A DNA stretch of 64,000 bases from Synechococcus sp. PROS-7-1 (GTDB lineage Bacteria; Cyanobacteriota; Cyanobacteriia; PCC-6307; Cyanobiaceae): positions 950,572 through 1,014,571 of the forward strand of contig NZ_CP047945.1 of the NCBI RefSeq assembly GCF_014279795.1, written 5' to 3'. Numbering within the stretch: position 1 is the stretch's first letter; every line of letters begins with the position of its first letter. The position numbers and the translations under genes are program-made. Shown here piece by piece: positions 16,916 through 24,963 of this stretch. Under the pieces are notes generated by a model. It did not search any database. It saw only the letters and a list, made by a program, of their open reading frames with translations, and was not told the origin of the DNA.

Positions 16916-17575
16916 TTAAAGCAGGCCGCGGTGTTGCACGAAGCGCTGGATCATCGCCCAGGAGCCCAGGGTCACCTTGAGGGCCACCAGCAGATTCAGT
17001 AGCGGAATCCAGCCTCCGCTCAGCAGACTTCCGAACTCACCGGCCCCTGGCGACAGCCCTTCGAGGGCCAGGAAGGACAAAACCACGAATCCCATCACTG
17101 CCGCTTTTTCCCAAAGATCCGCATTCCAGCGTTCGTGGAGCCGGCGACTGCGTTCACTTCCGCCGCTGATCAGCACCAGGCCAATGGCGGTGCCGCCGGC
17201 AACTCCTGCCGCGAATCCCCCGCCCGGGCTCAGGTGGCCTCGCAGTGCCAGCTCCACCGCCACCAGAGCTGCCAGCGTTGCCACTTGTTCGCACACCACC
17301 CGCGAGGGAATGTCGCTCAGGCTTCGGATCCGTGTCCGCAGGGGTTCGTCACGCAGCAGCATGCGCACACCGATGGAGGCCAAGGTGAACACCACCACTT
17401 CGCCGACGGTGTCGAACAAGCGGATGTGCAGAATCACCCCCGACACGAGATTGGGTACCTCTCCTTCAGCGGCCAGCCCGCTGATCAGTCCACCCATGCC
17501 ACCCACCTGAGGCAACGGTCCTGTGAGCGGTGCTGCGAAAAGCGCGATCGCAGCGAGCACATAGAGCCAGATCAT
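16916..17575 (-). CDS. mrpB: Mrp antiporter subunit B-like
   Basis: About 219 residues from ATG 17575 (MIWLYVLAAIALFAAP). It is a multi-span membrane protein with the MnhB core (LALRGHLSPGGGFAAGVAGG), the loop most conserved in that family. The N-terminal part (HIRLFDTVGEVVVFTLASIG) resembles the MbhE-like end of MrpA, so it may combine both. Last gene of the operon; the start overlaps the upstream stop by 4 bases. Part of the Mrp Na+/H+ antiporter. Confidence 0.85.
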   Translation of the reverse strand: MIWLYVLAAIALFAAPLTGPLPQVGGMGGLISGLAAEGEVPNLVSGVILHIRLFDTVGEVVVFTLASIGVRMLLRDEPLRTRIRSLSDIPSRVVCEQVATLAALVAVELALRGHLSPGGGFAAGVAGGTAIGLVLISGGSERSRRLHERWNADLWEKAAVMGFVVLSFLALEGLSPGAGEFGSLLSGGWIPLLNLLVALKVTLGSWAMIQRFVQHRGLL

Positions 17576-18129
17576 GGTGTTGGCTCCTCTGCTGGGATCA
17601 GCACCCCGCCGTTCTTGCGCCAATGCTCGTAGCCCGGGCTGCTCTGGAGACGTTGCTTCAGGGATGGCTGAACGATTGTGAGGCGACCTTGATCCTCCAG
17701 CCATCCATGGGGTGCTGAACCCTGCCGCACCAGCCGGAGCCGCAGATGCAGGGGCTGGATCCAGTGGCTCAGAACCTCGGCTTCAGCGTCGATCGATCCC
17801 TCAATGGCTCCCTCCGTGGCACCCCCCATTGCGCTGCTGCGTCGATCCTCAAGGCGCAGGGTCATCGACGAGCGCAGGGCGATCACATAAAGGGTGGTGG
17901 ACAGCAGGGTTCCCACCATTGCTTCGGTGAGGGCCACATCTGGAGCACCCAGGAGCACATAGAGCAGTGTGGCCACTGAACCGAAGACGCCGCGCAGCAT
18001 CAGGGCCTGGTAGGGGTTGTCCTGGCAGACCATCAGCACCGATACCAGCGGAAGCAACGCGGTGATCGGCAGCAGCAGCCCGAGGGAGCCTTGAAGACTC
18101 AACAGTGAGAGATCGAAATCAGGAAGCAT
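17572..18129 (-). CDS. MbhD/DUF4040-like subunit of the Mrp complex
   Basis: 185 residues from ATG 18129. The first ~110 residues hold three to four membrane helices with GAPDVALTEAMVG, the signature of DUF4040/MbhD, which in standard Mrp systems is the C-terminal part of MrpA. A soluble tail of ~75 residues follows, unusual for MbhD. Overlaps mrpG upstream by 11 bases and mrpB downstream by 4. Confidence 0.8.
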   Translation of the reverse strand: MLPDFDLSLLSLQGSLGLLLPITALLPLVSVLMVCQDNPYQALMLRGVFGSVATLLYVLLGAPDVALTEAMVGTLLSTTLYVIALRSSMTLRLEDRRSSAMGGATEGAIEGSIDAEAEVLSHWIQPLHLRLRLVRQGSAPHGWLEDQGRLTIVQPSLKQRLQSSPGYEHWRKNGGVLIPAEEPTP

Positions 18130-18442
18130 CACCCAGCTCCCGCGCCTTGGCATTGAGTAGTCGGCTCTGGTGAACCCCCCGGGCGACCACGTAACCGAAG
18201 ATCGTGTTCCAGAGCATCAAACCCAGCATGGCCAGGCCATAGAGCGGCCACCAGTCGGGACGTCGAATCAGAAGCCCCACCAGCATCAGCAGCGATCCCA
18301 GAGAGTCGGAAACCGTGAGCTTGTGCAGCCGGTCGAGCAGGGGACGCACCTCCAGCAGAGGCCAGCTGCCCCAGAACCAGAGGAACAGTCCCGCCATCAG
18401 AAACAGAAGGCTCACGGCCTCCTTCAGAAGCACAACACTCAT
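18119..18442 (-). CDS. mrpG: Mrp antiporter subunit G
   Basis: 107 residues with three membrane helices. The MnhG/PhaG signature lies in the middle (LLDRLHKLTVSDSLGSLLML), followed by a last helix. It is a small membrane subunit of the Mrp Na+/H+ antiporter. The start overlaps the mrpF stop by 4 bases. Confidence 0.88.
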   Translation of the reverse strand: MSVVLLKEAVSLLFLMAGLFLWFWGSWPLLEVRPLLDRLHKLTVSDSLGSLLMLVGLLIRRPDWWPLYGLAMLGLMLWNTIFGYVVARGVHQSRLLNAKARELGDAS

Positions 18443-18687
18443 GGCTCTCTCTCCTCCAGCAGCCTGGCCAGCAACAGCATTCCGGCGTCACCGGCGCTGA
18501 GCATCAGTGCCCCCACCAGGGCAATCATCCGATCTCCGCGCATCACGGCCACCACCAGGGCCAGCATCGCCACTTTGGTGCCAATGCTTCCAAACGCCGC
18601 CAGGCGATCCCACACACTGCCGTTGCGGCAGAGAAGAGCGATCGGAATCAACAGGGCGATCACCATGCCCCAGAGCAACAAGGTCAT
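18439..18687 (-). CDS. mrpF: Mrp antiporter subunit F
   Basis: 82 residues with three membrane helices. It has the MnhF pattern of a helix, R-N-G-S-V-W-D-R-L-A-A-F and two further helices. Overlaps mrpE by 4 bases and mrpG by 4. Short for the family but complete. Confidence 0.85.
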   Translation of the reverse strand: MTLLLWGMVIALLIPIALLCRNGSVWDRLAAFGSIGTKVAMLALVVAVMRGDRMIALVGALMLSAGDAGMLLLARLLEEREP

Positions 18688-19139
18688 TGCGGTGTCCTCT
18701 CGCCATCCGGCGCCTGCCCCCGGCGTGGTGCAGGGCGCAAGCGATGGATCCTGTAGCGATGGTGCGATCCCTCCACCGCATCCTCAACGCGCACGAGGTC
18801 GAGCACCAAGGTGAAGGGTGTGAGCGTGATCGCCAGCAGTTCCAGAAACACGACAAGCGGTGTGGCGGTGCCGCTGGCACGGTGCTCTGTTTCGTCACAG
18901 CGTTCGCATCCACCGGCAAGGATCAACGCCATCGCTTCGCCATAGGCCTGGGGAATGGCGACCAGGCTCTGCCCGACCGCCTTGAGCAGCGGCGCGATCC
19001 GTTCGCCGTGGTGGTGCGCTCTTGGTAAAAGGATCGCCACCAGCAAACCGAACAGGAGGTTGGTTCTGCCTGTTTCGCCTGTGAGCAACACCCACAGCAG
19101 CAAACGGAATCCCAGGCTCAGAATCACGGTCATCCCCAC
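18684..19139 (-). CDS. mrpE: Mrp antiporter subunit E
   Basis: 151 residues. MnhE layout: N-terminal hydrophobic pair with WVLLTGETGRTNLLFGLLVA, then the conserved LLAITLTPFTLVLDL strand-helix. The C-terminal tail is rich in His and Arg. Starts within the last 10 bases of mrpD. Confidence 0.85.
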   Translation of the reverse strand: MGMTVILSLGFRLLLWVLLTGETGRTNLLFGLLVAILLPRAHHHGERIAPLLKAVGQSLVAIPQAYGEAMALILAGGCERCDETEHRASGTATPLVVFLELLAITLTPFTLVLDLVRVEDAVEGSHHRYRIHRLRPAPRRGQAPDGERTPQ

Positions 19140-20644
19140 CCCTCCATGACATGCAGGCTGAGCAGCATTCCCGCTCCAACCACAGCCAGGCTGCCGATCA
19201 GATCCTGGAGTGATTCCAGATCAGGCCAGCGGCGTTCCAGCGCAGGTCGCCACCGCTGCAGACCCCGATCCAGCAGCAGACCGAGAGCGAACACCAGTCC
19301 GGTCACGGCCAGCTTCTGACCGTCGTGGGTGGGGGCAACGGCGAGGCCGATCAGAGCCGATGTACCGATCAACACCACCACAAGCAGACTGATGCTGCCC
19401 CCTGCAGGTGCCTGCACTGTGCCTTCACTGCTGGCGCTTCCGCCGGGGGCACACCACGGAGCACCCCAGAGCCTGGCGTAGATCGCCACACTGCCGATCG
19501 AAACCAGAAGCACGGCGGCGGCCCAGAACGGCGGCAACGCAGTCTCCAGCTCCGATTTGGCGGTGGAGCCAATCAACCAGGGGAAGCCTGCGATGGAGAG
19601 AGATCCGAGCCAGAGGGGAACCTGCAACCTGGCCGTGAGGGGACGCTGACGCCAGGTGTTGAGGTCGGTGGAGTCCACGCCTCCACTCATCAGAAACAGC
19701 AGGGCTTTCCCGAGGCCGTGCGCGAAGGCCATCAGTCCTCCGGCCACCGGTGAGAGGGCCACAAGCCCCATCTGGGACAGCGTGCTCCAGGCCAGAAGTC
19801 GACGCAGGTCGGTTTCGGTGAGCGCCCGTAAGAGGCCGAGCACGGCGCTGGCGATGCCGATCCAGCGAATGAGTGGTGCCAGCCCTGGGTCGATCTGCAT
19901 CAGTCGCAGCAGAGGCAGAACTCCGGCAGTGACCACCACCCCTGAGTGCAGTGCGGCGACCTCCGGCCTGGCTGCCGCATGACTGCGAGGAAGCCAGAGC
20001 CCGGGCAGGAACAATCCCCCCTTGCTGAAGAGTCCCAGAAGAATCAGCACCTGGGCACTGCCCAGTTCTAGGTCTGCCATGGCCTCCATGCTGAAGCTGC
20101 CTGTGCGCACATACACCAACCCGGTACCGATCAGGTACAGGGTCATGGCCGTGCTTGCGACCAGCAGATACCGGAGCGCGATCCAGTTCGAACGCGGCGC
20201 CTCCCGACGCAGTTGCAGCAGGAAGGCCGCGATGCCCACCACTTCCAGAGCGACATAAAGACTGATCAGGTCTGTCACCACGAAGCAGGTGTTCAGTCCG
20301 CCGAGCATGACGGCAGGCACCAGGGGGCCAGCGGCTCCCACAAGGTTGCGGCTGGCCAAACGGGTGGCGCCCAGCACCACGCCATTGAGCAGCAGAAACC
20401 AGGCAGCCGTGGCATCGATGCTCAAGCTGATGCCGTTGCTGCCGATCAGGTTGAGGCTGATGCTTTCGCCCAGCAACAGAGACGGCAACGCCATCAGCAC
20501 CGTGGCCAGACAGCAGAGCAGCAGAGGCAATTCTCCCAGCGCCGGCACCAAAGCACCGAAAAAGGCCAGCAGATAAGGCGCCAGCAGCCAGCCCACCACC
20601 ACAGCCGGCGTGAGCAGGGACACCAGGATCGTTTCAGGGGTCAT
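19130..20644 (-). CDS. mrpD: Mrp antiporter subunit D (proton-pumping type)
   Basis: 504 residues from ATG 20644, which overlaps the mrpC stop by one base. About 14 membrane helices of the NuoN/MrpD proton-antiporter family. Features include SLYVALEVVGIAAFLLQLRR, LLGLFSKGGLFLPGLWLPRSHA and LRRLLAWSTLSQMGLVAL, which hold the conserved Glu, Lys and His of the proton path. This is the only antiporter-like subunit here; the usual large MrpA N-terminal domain is missing. Confidence 0.92.
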   Translation of the reverse strand: MTPETILVSLLTPAVVVGWLLAPYLLAFFGALVPALGELPLLLCCLATVLMALPSLLLGESISLNLIGSNGISLSIDATAAWFLLLNGVVLGATRLASRNLVGAAGPLVPAVMLGGLNTCFVVTDLISLYVALEVVGIAAFLLQLRREAPRSNWIALRYLLVASTAMTLYLIGTGLVYVRTGSFSMEAMADLELGSAQVLILLGLFSKGGLFLPGLWLPRSHAAARPEVAALHSGVVVTAGVLPLLRLMQIDPGLAPLIRWIGIASAVLGLLRALTETDLRRLLAWSTLSQMGLVALSPVAGGLMAFAHGLGKALLFLMSGGVDSTDLNTWRQRPLTARLQVPLWLGSLSIAGFPWLIGSTAKSELETALPPFWAAAVLLVSIGSVAIYARLWGAPWCAPGGSASSEGTVQAPAGGSISLLVVVLIGTSALIGLAVAPTHDGQKLAVTGLVFALGLLLDRGLQRWRPALERRWPDLESLQDLIGSLAVVGAGMLLSLHVMEGWG

Positions 20645-21006
20645 CAACACGGGTCGTCCCTGTCGAACGTGCGCACATCCAGGAGGGGATCACGCATGGA
20701 GAGGCGGCTGATCACCACCAGCAGCAGGGCTTGGGTGGAGAGTCCGATCACGATCGCCGTGAGGATCACAGCCTGGGGAATCGGATCTGCGACAGCGGCC
20801 AAGGCCTGATCGGTCTCGCCGTTGGAGAGAATCGGGCTGCGCAGACCGGTGCGGGCCGCCACCAGCACAAAGAGCGCCACCACCGATCCGCCCATGACAT
20901 CCATGGCCAGCACCTTCAGGTAGAGGTTGCGGCGGAGCAGCAGCCCGAGAAATCCACTCAGCAGGCTGAGCAGAATCAGCAGTTCCAGGAGTCGGATGGT
21001 GGCCAT
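20644..21006 (-). CDS. mrpC: Mrp antiporter subunit C (NuoK-like)
   Basis: 120 residues with three membrane helices. NuoK/MnhC features: an NLYLKVLAMDVMGGSVVALF helix and DPIPQAVILTAIVIGLSTQA, the family's most conserved stretch. The start codon directly abuts the stop of the TerB/Coq4-like gene, so all eight genes from 22032 to 16916 look like one operon. Confidence 0.9.
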   Translation of the reverse strand: MATIRLLELLILLSLLSGFLGLLLRRNLYLKVLAMDVMGGSVVALFVLVAARTGLRSPILSNGETDQALAAVADPIPQAVILTAIVIGLSTQALLLVVISRLSMRDPLLDVRTFDRDDPC

Positions 21007-22032
21007 TCAATGGCTGACCGACGGGGACTCTGGGTATTCGGCGCTTCGACCTCTTGCAGGAATTGCAAATCGATCCCTCACCACCTCGAGCGGGTCGCTG
21101 AAGTGATCCCAGGGATCAATGTCGCGAATCAGGTCGGTGTTCACATGACTTCCATGCTCGAGGCCTGCGAAGACCCTGTCGGGATCCAGTTGTCTCCACT
21201 CCCCCGGGATGAACGGAGAGACGCCGATGCCCAGTTCAAACTCGGCCATCACAAACATGATCACATCGAAGGGATCCAGGCGCTCGAAACCGGCCTGGAA
21301 GCCAATCACCCCACCTTCCTCGGCGGCCGTTGTGCCATAGCCTCCGAGCACGTGGCAGCAGTCATGGCGAAACACCGGTGGTGGTGGTCCTCCCAAGGCT
21401 CCGGGAAAGGCGAAGTCATTGCGCTCGATGAAGTCGGCATAGGCCTTGCCGAAGCTGCCAGATGGATAACTGCGCAAGCTTTGGAAGCGCTCGATCATGG
21501 CGCGGTCCTCATGACCGCTGATCACCTTGAGGGTTGACGCAAACGCCGGAAGCCCACCATCACGCACCGTGGCTTCAATGGCCTGCCGCAAAAAACCACG
21601 TCGGGCGATGTCGAAGCGAACAATCGTCTGGCGATCCAGCATCACGTTCCTGTAGGTGCTCACCGGTCGGGCATCGACCCCGAACGCCTCGGCAGCAGCA
21701 TCCAGCAGGGAGAGGGTCTGGGGGTCAGGGTTGCCGTCGAACATGGCGACGAGCGTCATCCCCCGCAGAATCCGTTCTTTCCATTCGGGATCGGGATCAC
21801 AGGCACTAACGGCCTGCGCCATGGCCGCGGGCGTGAGGCTCGGGCGTTGTTGCAAATCACAGTCCACCTGCAGAAGGTGGTCGCGAATGGCGGAGATCCC
21901 GGCAAGGGCGCGTTCCGATGGTTCGCCCCGCAAGCGGGCCACGGTCATCAAGCAGGACAATCCGCTCTCCGCCAGACAACGCCGAAGCTCGGAGCTGAGG
22001 GGCCTTCCGGGATGAATGACCATGGCGATCAC
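21007..22032 (-). CDS. TerB-like/Coq4-like fusion protein
   Basis: 341 residues; ATG 22023 is an alternative start. Residues ~40-120 look like a TerB-type helical domain. Residues ~170-290 resemble Coq4: GSFGKAYADFIERNDF, then His223-Asp-Cys-Cys-His227 and Glu239, an exact HDxxHx11E metal motif. Coq4 acts in ubiquinone synthesis, a quinone cyanobacteria do not make, so the role here must differ; a lipid or quinone handling role is inference. No membrane helix. First gene of the Mrp operon. Confidence 0.65.
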   Translation of the reverse strand: MIAMVIHPGRPLSSELRRCLAESGLSCLMTVARLRGEPSERALAGISAIRDHLLQVDCDLQQRPSLTPAAMAQAVSACDPDPEWKERILRGMTLVAMFDGNPDPQTLSLLDAAAEAFGVDARPVSTYRNVMLDRQTIVRFDIARRGFLRQAIEATVRDGGLPAFASTLKVISGHEDRAMIERFQSLRSYPSGSFGKAYADFIERNDFAFPGALGGPPPPVFRHDCCHVLGGYGTTAAEEGGVIGFQAGFERLDPFDVIMFVMAEFELGIGVSPFIPGEWRQLDPDRVFAGLEHGSHVNTDLIRDIDPWDHFSDPLEVVRDRFAIPARGRSAEYPESPSVSH

Positions 22033-22115
22033 CGGCGCTTATCAGCCAGTGATAGCCATGGGGTGGGAAACAGCGTCAGATCGCGATGAACCTGTCCCGT
22101 CTGTCATGACCTGAT

Positions 22116-22970
22116 TCAACTGTGTTTGCTTTCAGCGACGGCCAGGGCAGCAGCAGGATCGCCGCTGAGATCGGCCTTGAGGAATGCTGGCGTTTCAGGG
22201 AGAGCCAGATGCAGGGCCTCTTCCCGATGCAGATCCACCTCGATCTGATCGCATTGCAGGTCAAGGACGTGGCCGGCGTGTTGCCGGTCATCGGTCAGTA
22301 GATGCAGATGGAATCCAGGCACGTTGATCGTGCGGGCATAGCTGGGGGTCCAAAACCCAACCAGGGTGCCGTTCACCCCTTCCTGCTGGAATTCGGCCTG
22401 ATGGGAGGTGGCGCTGACAAGGTCTGTGCCTGCTTCAGCGCGACAGGCCACCCGGTAACGGATGGAGTTGAAGTGCCCACGCAGACGCAAACCGACGAAC
22501 AGGTTGTCGTTGTCGCGCAGTGCATCGAGGCGCTGAGTCAGGTCCTCCCATCCCTTGATGTTGCTCAACTGCTCTGTCTTGTCTGCGTGGAAGCGGGTGG
22601 TCACCCAGAACGGGGCTTCAGCATCGGCAGGTGCTTCGCGCACACTGCCGTCGCTGCGGGCTTGCCAGCAGACTCCATCAAGCATGATGCCCTCGCCATC
22701 GAGGCTGTCGTAGGTCCCGAGGCCGAAGTCGCCATGTTTCAGGATTTCGGCAACGGTGACGCAGCCCTGGTAGACGCCCTGGACGAGAGCGCCCGAGGTG
22801 GAGACCTGATAAAGGGTGTGATGTTCCAGGTCGAGGGATTCGCTCAGCAGGCTTCGCACGAGGTGGGATGGAGATTCGCCACGTTGCCTACTCTCTTCGC
22901 ATAGGGCCTGCCAGAGGCCTGCACCAAGGCGCAGGCTCAGGGTGTGCCCGAGGTCGGGATGGGTTGTCAT
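22116..22970 (-). CDS. budA: Alpha-acetolactate decarboxylase with N-terminal extension
   Basis: 284 residues. The first ~45 (LSLRLGAGLWQALCEESRQR, then SPSHLVRSLLSE) look like a ribbon-helix-helix, absent from ordinary BudA. The rest is acetolactate decarboxylase: LYQVSTSGALVQGVYQG, GTYDSLDGEGIMLDG and GFHLHLLTDDRQHAGHVLD, which carries the His-x-His ... His zinc ligands. It converts acetolactate to acetoin. Starts 22 bases after the acetolactate synthase stop on the same strand. Confidence 0.93.
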   Translation of the reverse strand: MTTHPDLGHTLSLRLGAGLWQALCEESRQRGESPSHLVRSLLSESLDLEHHTLYQVSTSGALVQGVYQGCVTVAEILKHGDFGLGTYDSLDGEGIMLDGVCWQARSDGSVREAPADAEAPFWVTTRFHADKTEQLSNIKGWEDLTQRLDALRDNDNLFVGLRLRGHFNSIRYRVACRAEAGTDLVSATSHQAEFQQEGVNGTLVGFWTPSYARTINVPGFHLHLLTDDRQHAGHVLDLQCDQIEVDLHREEALHLALPETPAFLKADLSGDPAAALAVAESKHS

Positions 22971-22992
22971 GGTGTGGGATAGGCGGTCGTGT

Positions 22993-24636
22993 TCAGTGAA
23001 TGAAGTCCTGGTAGACGTCTTGCATCAAACGCTGGTTTTTTGAGTAGTCGACCGGGATGTCGATCAGCACGGGCACGTCCTGTTGCAGCCCCTCACGGAT
23101 CAGGGGAAGCAGTTGGTCGGGGTCATCGATTCGGTGGCCGCGGCAGCCGAAGCACTCAGCGAATTTCACAACGTCGTAGTCGCCGAGCTTCACGCCGGAA
23201 ACTCGCCCGTAATGGGCTTCTTCCTGGAATTCCACCATGTTGTAGGAGTGGCTGTTCCAGATCAGATGCACGAATCGGCTGCCGATCCTTTTGGCCGTTT
23301 CCAGTTCGGTGGCTGTGAACAGGAAACCGCCATCCCCTGATACGGAGAGGATTGGAGCATCGGGATAGAGCAACCGCGCCGCCATCGCCCAGGGCAGGGC
23401 TACCCCGAGGGTCTGCTGGCCGTTGCTCACCAGCACCTGACGGGCATGCTGGGCAGGTACATAGCGATTCATCCAGATGTAATGGGAGCCAACATCCAGG
23501 GCCAGAATCGTTTCAGGAGTAATCACCTGTTGGATGTCGTGCACCACCCTCAGGGGAGGGACCGGGCATCCGCCCATCTGGGCCCCCTCGGCCACGGTGC
23601 TGTGCAGTTCCGCCATGCGCTCAGCGGCTGATCGGCGGAAGTCCTCCTCCACCGTCAGCTTCAACATCCCCTGTAAAGCCTCGAGGCTGGCGCCAATGTC
23701 ACCGATCAGCTCCACTGCGGGGATGAAGGCCTGGTCCTGATCTGGTGCCACCACATCAGCGGCAATCAAGGGGCGGGGGTTGCCGGTGTTCCAGAGGCTC
23801 GGATCAAATTCCACGGCATCAAAGCCGATCGTGATCACGGCATCTGCTTCGTCGAGTAATTTGTCGGCCGGTTGGTTGCGAAACAGACCCACCCGACCGG
23901 CGAAGTGCTCGGGGACAACCCAGCGGCCAGGCCCCTGAAACGTGGAGCAATACGGAATCGCGGCGGCCTGCAAAAAGCGCTGGAGGGGCTCGGCTAGCTG
24001 GGGTGAAGACGCTTGCATGCCCAGCAAAGCGATCGGCTTGCGGCTGGTGTTGAGGACCTCTGCAGCCCGCTGCAATGCCGCCACTGGGGCGGGTCCAATC
24101 GAGTGGGACTGCCCCCAGGCGCCAGGTGGCAGTGCATCCAATGTCGCCAGCCCTACATCCTTGGGCAGACCGAGATACACCGCTCCGGGGCGCCCACTTT
24201 CCGCAGCACGCACCGCATTGCCGAACACCTCCGGCAGGTCATGCACGGTGAGCGCGGATTGAGAAAACTTCGTCACTGGACGCATGACATCCACACCGTC
24301 CAGTGCCTGGTGGGTGTGTTTGAAGCGGTCATCGAGGGGCACTTCACCGCCGATGGCCAGCACTGGATCACCCTCCGATGTGGCGGTGGCCAGACCCGTC
24401 ACCAAGTTGGTGACACCGGGGCCAGAGGTCACCAGGCACACACCGATTGTTCCAGTGAGCCGACCGAAGGCCTGGGCCATGAACGCGGCATTCTGTTCAT
24501 GACGGCAGAGCACCAGCTCGATCGGTGAATCGAGCAGGGCGATGAACATGCTGTCGACCTTGGCTCCTGGGATGCCGAAGACATGGGTAACACCGTGGTT
24601 CTCGAGCAATTTGACGAGGGCCTGGGCTCCATTCAT
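22993..24636 (-). CDS. alsS: Acetolactate synthase (catabolic, AlsS-like)
   Basis: 547 residues, a thiamine-diphosphate enzyme. CRHEQNAAFMA carries the catalytic Glu, SGPGVTNLVTG follows, and the cofactor motif runs from GDGGFLFTATELETA to the IWNSHSYNM end. The closing MVEFQEEAHYGR is typical of AlsS-type enzymes without FAD. It condenses two pyruvates to acetolactate plus CO2. Next to budA it forms an acetoin operon; a role in branched amino acid synthesis is less likely because no regulatory subunit is present. Confidence 0.92.
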   Translation of the reverse strand: MNGAQALVKLLENHGVTHVFGIPGAKVDSMFIALLDSPIELVLCRHEQNAAFMAQAFGRLTGTIGVCLVTSGPGVTNLVTGLATATSEGDPVLAIGGEVPLDDRFKHTHQALDGVDVMRPVTKFSQSALTVHDLPEVFGNAVRAAESGRPGAVYLGLPKDVGLATLDALPPGAWGQSHSIGPAPVAALQRAAEVLNTSRKPIALLGMQASSPQLAEPLQRFLQAAAIPYCSTFQGPGRWVVPEHFAGRVGLFRNQPADKLLDEADAVITIGFDAVEFDPSLWNTGNPRPLIAADVVAPDQDQAFIPAVELIGDIGASLEALQGMLKLTVEEDFRRSAAERMAELHSTVAEGAQMGGCPVPPLRVVHDIQQVITPETILALDVGSHYIWMNRYVPAQHARQVLVSNGQQTLGVALPWAMAARLLYPDAPILSVSGDGGFLFTATELETAKRIGSRFVHLIWNSHSYNMVEFQEEAHYGRVSGVKLGDYDVVKFAECFGCRGHRIDDPDQLLPLIREGLQQDVPVLIDIPVDYSKNQRLMQDVYQDFIH

Positions 24637-24657
24637 TGATGGCTGAAATGGCTGATC

Positions 24658-24673
24658 CTCTTGTTAGCAAGAG
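24658..24673. other. Small perfect hairpin in the alsS leader
   Basis: CTCTTG-TTAG-CAAGAG, a 6-base stem 22 bases before the alsS start. It may be an operator or a leader structure; nothing in the sequence shows which. Confidence 0.35.
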
Positions 24674-24728
24674 ATTTCTGATGGCTAGTGATCTACGAGA
24701 CTGCTGAATGTGCGGGGAGACATGGCCA

Positions 24729-24760
24729 ATAAAAAGAGGGGTGACACTGGTCACCCTCTT
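24729..24760 (-). terminator. Factor-independent terminator (minus strand)
   Basis: Stem of 11 bases (AAGAGGGTGAC paired with its complement, one bulged base) followed on the minus strand by CTTTTTATT. It lies 27 bases after the stop of the small gene 24787-24963 and would isolate it from alsS. Confidence 0.8.
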
Positions 24761-24786
24761 GGTGGATTCCCTTTGGGGAAACAGCG

Positions 24787-24963
24787 TCAGATGCTGTAGC
24801 GATACCCGAGATAACGCAGCTCAGTGGTTTTGCGTTCAGCCTTTTCGGGCTGATTGGCATCCAGTGATTCAGCGTCACGCTGATCCTTCGCCATCACCTG
24901 CTGGGCCTTTTTGAGGGCCTCAGCTTTGATCTGACGAGATTTGGTCAATTGAAGGGTGTTCAT
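24787..24963 (-). CDS. 58-residue hypothetical protein
   Basis: Starts at ATG 24963. Charged helix (KSRQIKAEALKKAQQVMAKD) and a C-terminal TTELRYLGYRYSI, which recalls the Tyr-rich motif of small DUF4278-type cyanobacterial proteins. Followed by a clear terminator, so it is a single-gene unit. Confidence 0.6.
   Translation of the reverse strand: MNTLQLTKSRQIKAEALKKAQQVMAKDQRDAESLDANQPEKAERKTTELRYLGYRYSI

Follow-up and report, generated by a model that had tools for sequence, protein, structure and literature searches.

What is encoded by the gene that lies directly before mrpC in Synechococcus sp. PROS-7-1, and does its product serve the Mrp Na+/H+ antiporter? The gene sits in a 64,000-nucleotide stretch of contig NZ_CP047945.1 (the window, meaning the whole stretch analyzed), and a sequence-only reading had described it as a TerB/Coq4-like fusion leading the Mrp operon. 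Judged by profile searches, it encodes a genuine two-part protein in which a TerB-like domain is joined to a Coq4-like domain. Our best reading of its function, held tentatively and with somewhat less than even confidence, is that of an accessory Zn-dependent Coq4-like enzyme acting on a prenyl or aromatic acid and probably co-expressed with mrp in a single clade. Coordinates are collected in Table 1.

The C-terminal part of the protein carries HDCCHVLGGYGTTAAEE at residues 223-239, confirming the exact match to the HDxxHx11E motif of Coq4 that had been noticed earlier. This motif arose in 18 of 20,000 shuffles of the fusion protein and is kept in all 34 aligned sequences (the window's included), distant paralogs at ∼20 to 30% identity among them. 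When an 18-sequence fusion alignment was compared by hhalign with the four Coq4 proteins encoded by PROS-7-1, the probability was 98.5 and the E value 2.2e-15. All seven fusion proteins scanned singly (the window's and six relatives) scored under Pfam's curated Coq4 cut-off, and because of this we file the protein as Coq4-like, not Coq4, a sequence-based assignment. To our knowledge the cyanobacterial host has no ubiquinone pathway, and a Coq4 motif had been considered odd in organisms that make plastoquinone. That argument holds poorly, because four genes elsewhere in the PROS-7-1 genome pass Pfam's Coq4 cut-off and the structure of a Coq4-type protein, Alr8543 (PDB ID: 6e12), has been solved. 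Alr8543 we take to be a Nostoc protein, presumably with geranylgeranyl monophosphate bound.

A profile of the 34 sequences, searched against all PDB sequences up to an E value of 10, returned just four matches, two of Coq4 type and two TerB. The former, a 'putative ubiquinone biosynthesis protein' (PDB ID: 3msq, E 1.2e-8) and Alr8543 (E 4.1e-7), fell at profile positions 180-323, and the latter, a 'tellurite resistance protein of COG3793' (PDB ID: 2ou3, E 0.011) and TerB (PDB ID: 2jxu, E 0.42), at positions 19-127. Scanning each of the 34 sequences singly against Pfam at an E value of at most 0.1 found Coq4 in 33 (best 2.9e-5) and TerB in nine (best 5.8e-4). The window protein alone had no TerB match in Pfam and no match of any kind in NCBIfam up to an E value of 1, and its six matches to PDB sequences were at chance level (best E 0.49) and included neither TerB nor Coq4. 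A literature search on Coq4 and TerB together gave nothing relevant, judged from titles and abstract openings.

Two AlphaFold runs, one on the full-length protein and one on the Coq4 half alone, used three sequences each. The full-length model was of low confidence (mean predicted local distance difference test score, pLDDT, of 51.5), with values of 66-85 in ten-residue blocks from residue 11 to 120. A fold search with this model placed TerB 2ou3 first (Z score of 12.4, 144 residues aligned, root mean square deviation of 3.8), followed by 2h5n (Z score of 8.5) and a third-best match at 5.3; mostly helical models may reach such Z scores without kinship, and the result is read jointly with that of the 34-sequence profile. 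No Coq4 structure appeared in this search, but its absence does not count against a Coq4 fold. Between the window and Synechococcus WH7803 the fusion gene has a ratio of nonsynonymous to synonymous substitution rates (dN/dS) of 0.118, near those of mrpC (0.104) and mrpD (0.132), and is therefore under purifying selection between these close strains.

We propose that the product would be a soluble or membrane-edge protein combining a TerB-like all-helical domain with a Coq4-like domain, whose H223, D224, H227 and E239 would coordinate a divalent metal, zinc being the likeliest. If the chemistry resembles that of COQ4, a carboxylated phenol, probably with a prenyl chain, would be bound and decarboxylated at this metal; the invariance of the site in a Coq4-like domain points to an enzyme whose Coq4-like reaction would act on an aromatic or lipid that is carboxylated and probably also prenylated. 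The role would be an accessory one in the tailoring or repair of a lipid or quinone, neither a core plastoquinone step nor that of an Mrp subunit, and in the WH7803 clade the gene would have come to sit directly before mrpC. We infer the identity of the metal, the substrate, the reaction, the membrane contact and co-transcription with mrp. The sections of PMC7615680 on the COQ4 motif give its canonical Zn-binding motif the same HDxxHx11E spacing, describe Zn-dependent C1 decarboxylation in vitro, and record that product was undetected with double mutants of the four motif residues. According to part of a review (PMC12938788) that has Pelosi et al. 2024 among its references, COQ4 carries out oxidative decarboxylation in cells. 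With COQ4 now reported to be a Zn-dependent decarboxylase, the fusion protein raises the question of which further carboxylated substrates, lipid or aromatic, the domain acts on in organisms that lack ubiquinone.

Of 400 genomes in the window's family, 36 carry the fusion gene (E value threshold of 1e-50), two of them as decayed copies (genomes G009 and G027). Within the window's genus a full-length copy is present in 7 of 31 genomes and none was found in the other 24, some of which are incomplete; remnants occur in G007, G009, G013, G023 and G027, and in G020 the copy is cut short by the end of its contig. An ortholog at 58% identity is present beyond the family in Nodosilinea nodulosa PCC 7104, and the same contig search also found WH7803. 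Of 339 genomes of the phylum searched with a broader profile (E 1e-25), 16 contain the wider fusion family, and two of these 16 fall outside the window's family. The distribution is patchy, with decay in places. UbiD was present in 21 of 21 genomes tested, nine with an intact fusion gene and 12 without, and given this together with the patchy and locally decaying fusion gene, the activity is probably accessory. Cyanobacterial plastoquinone is made from 4-hydroxybenzoate, and a role as the core plastoquinone decarboxylase is unlikely, since UbiD occurs in carriers and noncarriers alike and most genomes of the genus lack a full-length fusion copy. A mobile or phage gene was also considered and rejected, with no match in plasmid or phage collections (E 1e-5) and no relative in a profile scan of viral contigs. 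In one genome (G028, L048 10738-13896) several open reading frames (ORFs) for Nif11-type leader peptides and a transposase-like ORF were seen by eye just downstream of the ortholog.

The nearest competitor to an accessory enzyme is a noncatalytic lipid- or quinone-binding protein, whose Coq4-like half would bind a prenyl chain around a purely structural metal site. We consider this unlikely, though worth keeping in view; the geranylgeranyl monophosphate presumably bound by Alr8543 would suit it, but the four metal-site residues are invariant across the 34 sequences even in the distant paralogs, which would be unusual for a purely structural role. A metal-dependent protein of oxidative or metal stress, in which the TerB-like half senses or sequesters metal and no Coq4-type chemistry takes place, is more improbable. 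The presence of a TerB-like half would suit it, as would the ZnuA/ZnuC-type metal transporter genes ∼2 to 6 kb away in the window and several relatives, but these lie on the opposite strand with other genes in between. Neighborhoods were compared at 37 intact or near-intact ortholog loci: seven from the window's genus, the Nodosilinea locus, and 29 from a further 27 family genomes outside that genus, with contig ends truncating some flanks. ZnuA did not appear at any of those 29 loci. Passages of PMC7393227 describe a Mn/Zn ATP-binding cassette transporter of WH7803 (SynWH7803_0988-90), possibly the neighboring one, as raised under low-temperature stress, but those passages do not name the fusion gene.

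The sequence-only reading had instead tied the protein directly to the Mrp antiporter, which it would serve as a peripheral partner that binds metal and lipid or as a factor in assembly. The claim that the gene abuts mrpC without a gap is borne out in the window and two relatives (WH7803 and G006), where the ATG of mrpC follows the TGA of the fusion gene at a distance of zero bases, and because of this zero gap the two genes are probably translated together in the WH7803 clade. The fusion gene also shares its level of purifying selection with mrpC and mrpD. However, Mrp genes adjoin it in only 3 of the 37 loci (the window, G006 and G010, which appears to be WH7803), all in one clade, and we accordingly rejected conserved membership in the Mrp operon. 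The fourth clade member by a gyrB tree, G009, is without the segment corresponding to window positions 16961-21462, from the end of mrpB through to the middle of the fusion gene. That mrp and the 3' part of the gene disappeared together might count in favor of a partnership, but a single deletion apparently removed both, and the loss is thus uninformative on function; most simply, the arrangement was ancestral to the WH7803 clade and was lost as one piece in G009. At the joint (L052 9540-9600) the alignments from the two sides share a 14-base overlap.

The location beside Mrp is thus a local arrangement of one clade. The tie to Na+/H+ antiport is supported for the WH7803 clade only, and the linkage in relatives, on whose absence the sequence-only reading had staked its proposal, is mostly missing. 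Service to the antiporter would matter more than an accessory activity, but the relatives do not carry that claim. Elsewhere, the Nodosilinea ortholog neighbors a divergent Na+/H+ exchanger (PF00999; L045 6298-7554), and four genomes of genus g33 have a sodium:alanine symporter near the ortholog (L113 7591-8937; checked against Pfam in one genome). The three sodium transporters found beside orthologs belong to different families, and we draw no conclusion from them. Other neighbors include SelO in G131, and inspection by eye added genes resembling mnmE and nadC in G022 and one resembling HupE in G030. Passages of PMC7393227 on diel expression describe mrpCDF of WH7803 as reduced for the most part in daytime and increased at night, and do not name the fusion gene.

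Co-occurrence was examined with thresholds of E 1e-60 for mrpD and E 1e-50 for the fusion gene, the decayed copies in G009 and G027 counting as carriers. Among the 400 family genomes, mrpD was present in 24 of 36 carriers vs 37 of 364 others (Fisher p of 1e-13, kinship ignored), leaving 12 carriers without mrpD at this threshold and 37 genomes with mrpD and no fusion gene, both of which speak against direct service to the antiporter. As a yardstick, budA was found in 7 of 36 carriers vs 40 of 364 others (p of 0.17), and budA vs mrpD gave a p of 0.13. Within the window's genus, counting only intact fusion copies in the 24 genomes at least 90% complete, mrpD occurred in six of seven carriers vs 3 of 17 noncarriers (p of 0.004), and within genus g6 in 8 of 10 carriers vs 6 of 23 noncarriers, kinship again being ignored in both. 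A Pagel-type test on a gyrB tree of 53 genomes from the two genera gave a likelihood ratio of 7.9 for the dependent vs the independent model, with a nonsignificant p of 0.096 that is asymptotic only; this test coded G020 as a noncarrier although its copy runs off a contig end, G386 was left out of the tree for want of a single intact gyrB, and 3 of the 33 genus g6 genomes were left out. In the 24 genomes with both genes, the distance between them was 1.9 kb in three, 24 to 27 kb in three, and more than 500 kb or across contigs in 18. A functional link to Mrp is possible, the statistics offering an unproven hint, and with the pair so often far apart we regard a dedicated Mrp partner as improbable. 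It is a long shot that, in picocyanobacteria with both genes, a TerB-Coq4 metalloenzyme produces or modifies a prenyl-aromatic lipid supporting Mrp (itself related to the membrane subunits of complex I); if true, the two genes would co-occur across the family because they share a task, and in the WH7803 clade the pair would have become fixed as one operon.

Several points weigh against the accessory Coq4-like enzyme and the domain assignments beneath it. Both halves of the predicted fusion are upheld by the profile searches, as resemblances that are real though distant, and the TerB half by the structure model as well, but the C-terminal half reached a pLDDT of only 36.4 when modeled alone (51.5 for the full-length protein), and its predicted Coq4 fold rests on sequence profiles. 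The window protein itself scores 15.3 bits against Pfam's Coq4, under the cut-off of 22.9, and the TerB profile matches are weak. Six further Pfam families appear at similar weakness, each in one or two of the 34 members, including RecC_C in two (best 0.004) and NNH1 in one (0.012). Catalysis and substrate are predicted by analogy with COQ4, and the co-occurrence with Mrp far exceeds both budA controls, which leaves room for a functional link.

Table 1. Features at and around the fusion gene, in window coordinates.
Feature	Position	Strand	Basis
TerB-like/Coq4-like fusion gene	21007..22032	(-)	ORF, 341 aa, homology, dN/dS 0.118 vs WH7803
TerB-like helical N-terminal domain (predicted), ~residues 14-122	21667..21993	(-)	structure model, 34-sequence profile, Pfam
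Coq4-like core (predicted), C-terminal, ~residues 180-327	21052..21495	(-)	profile to 3msq and 6e12; hhalign to the genome's Coq4 proteins
HDxxHx11E putative metal site, H223 D224 H227 E239	21316..21366	(-)	motif in 34/34 sequences
mrpC	20644..21006	(-)	ATG on the base right after the fusion gene stop
Remaining mrp operon: D, E, F, G, MbhD-type piece, B	16916..20650	(-)	Pfam/NCBIfam; E and F weak
budA, alpha-acetolactate decarboxylase	22116..22970	(-)	PF03306, E 1.6e-71; upstream of fusion gene
alsS-like thiamine pyrophosphate (TPP) enzyme	22993..24636	(-)	TPP enzyme domains; name by eye and from adjoining budA; part of inserted cassette

The fusion gene starts with GTG, with an in-frame ATG at residue 4. 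Among the mrp genes, the MrpE match (25.3 bits) is slightly under Pfam's 27, and MrpF is known only through an NCBIfam match at an E value of 0.004. A promoter and terminator scan found one promoter-like site vs 0.9 expected by chance and was not used as evidence. Since budA and the alsS-like gene lie upstream on the same strand, the fusion gene need not be the first gene of the operon in this strain, contrary to the role of leader first assigned to it. Relative to G006, WH7803/G010 and G009, the window carries the alsS-budA cassette (22082-24777) as an insertion, with identical 17-base direct repeats on either side (22065-22081 and 24776-24792). A 5' alsS piece in G027 (L053 10351-10637), adjoining the decayed copy of the fusion gene, has 99.0% DNA identity over 287 bases to window positions 24355-24641 while the remaining matches of that locus to the window are only ∼67 to 90% identical; on this sequence comparison the cassette appears to have been recently exchanged between lineages. 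Elsewhere, two canonical Coq4 genes lie close together (L037, L038; G000 C1:1301706-1306061) with a DUF2063 protein and, by eye, an exporter of major facilitator superfamily type. A figure legend of PMC10783134 places Coq4 within a prochlorosin-type cluster, and the paired genes are possibly part of a natural-product cluster.

Compared with Coq4/COQ4 (PF05019; PDB IDs: 6e12 and 3msq), the fusion protein has identical HDxxHx11E spacing, preceded by an LPxGSLG-type block, and profile similarity across ∼140 residues, but it has an additional TerB-like N-terminal domain and a subthreshold Pfam score, and the four canonical Coq4 genes sit apart from it in the same genome. With respect to TerB/COG3793 (PF05099; PDB IDs: 2ou3 and 2jxu), the N-terminal helical domain matches 2ou3 at the Z score given above and another PROS-7-1 protein, which has a TerB domain, matches weakly (E 0.002), whereas here the domain is joined to a Coq4-like one and the window protein lacks a TerB match of its own in Pfam. 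The closest parallel within PROS-7-1 is a second TerB-Coq4 fusion gene (C1:668866-669765) with the same two-part layout, the motif HDCCHxLGG and 27% identity (E 4.5e-25); it differs in sitting between pyrophosphatase-like and hemC-like genes (by eye, in three genomes), and the stretches around it that were examined held no Mrp match. These proteins make up a group of two-domain Coq4-like proteins, encountered in this analysis mostly in the window's cyanobacterial family, that standard Pfam models score weakly.
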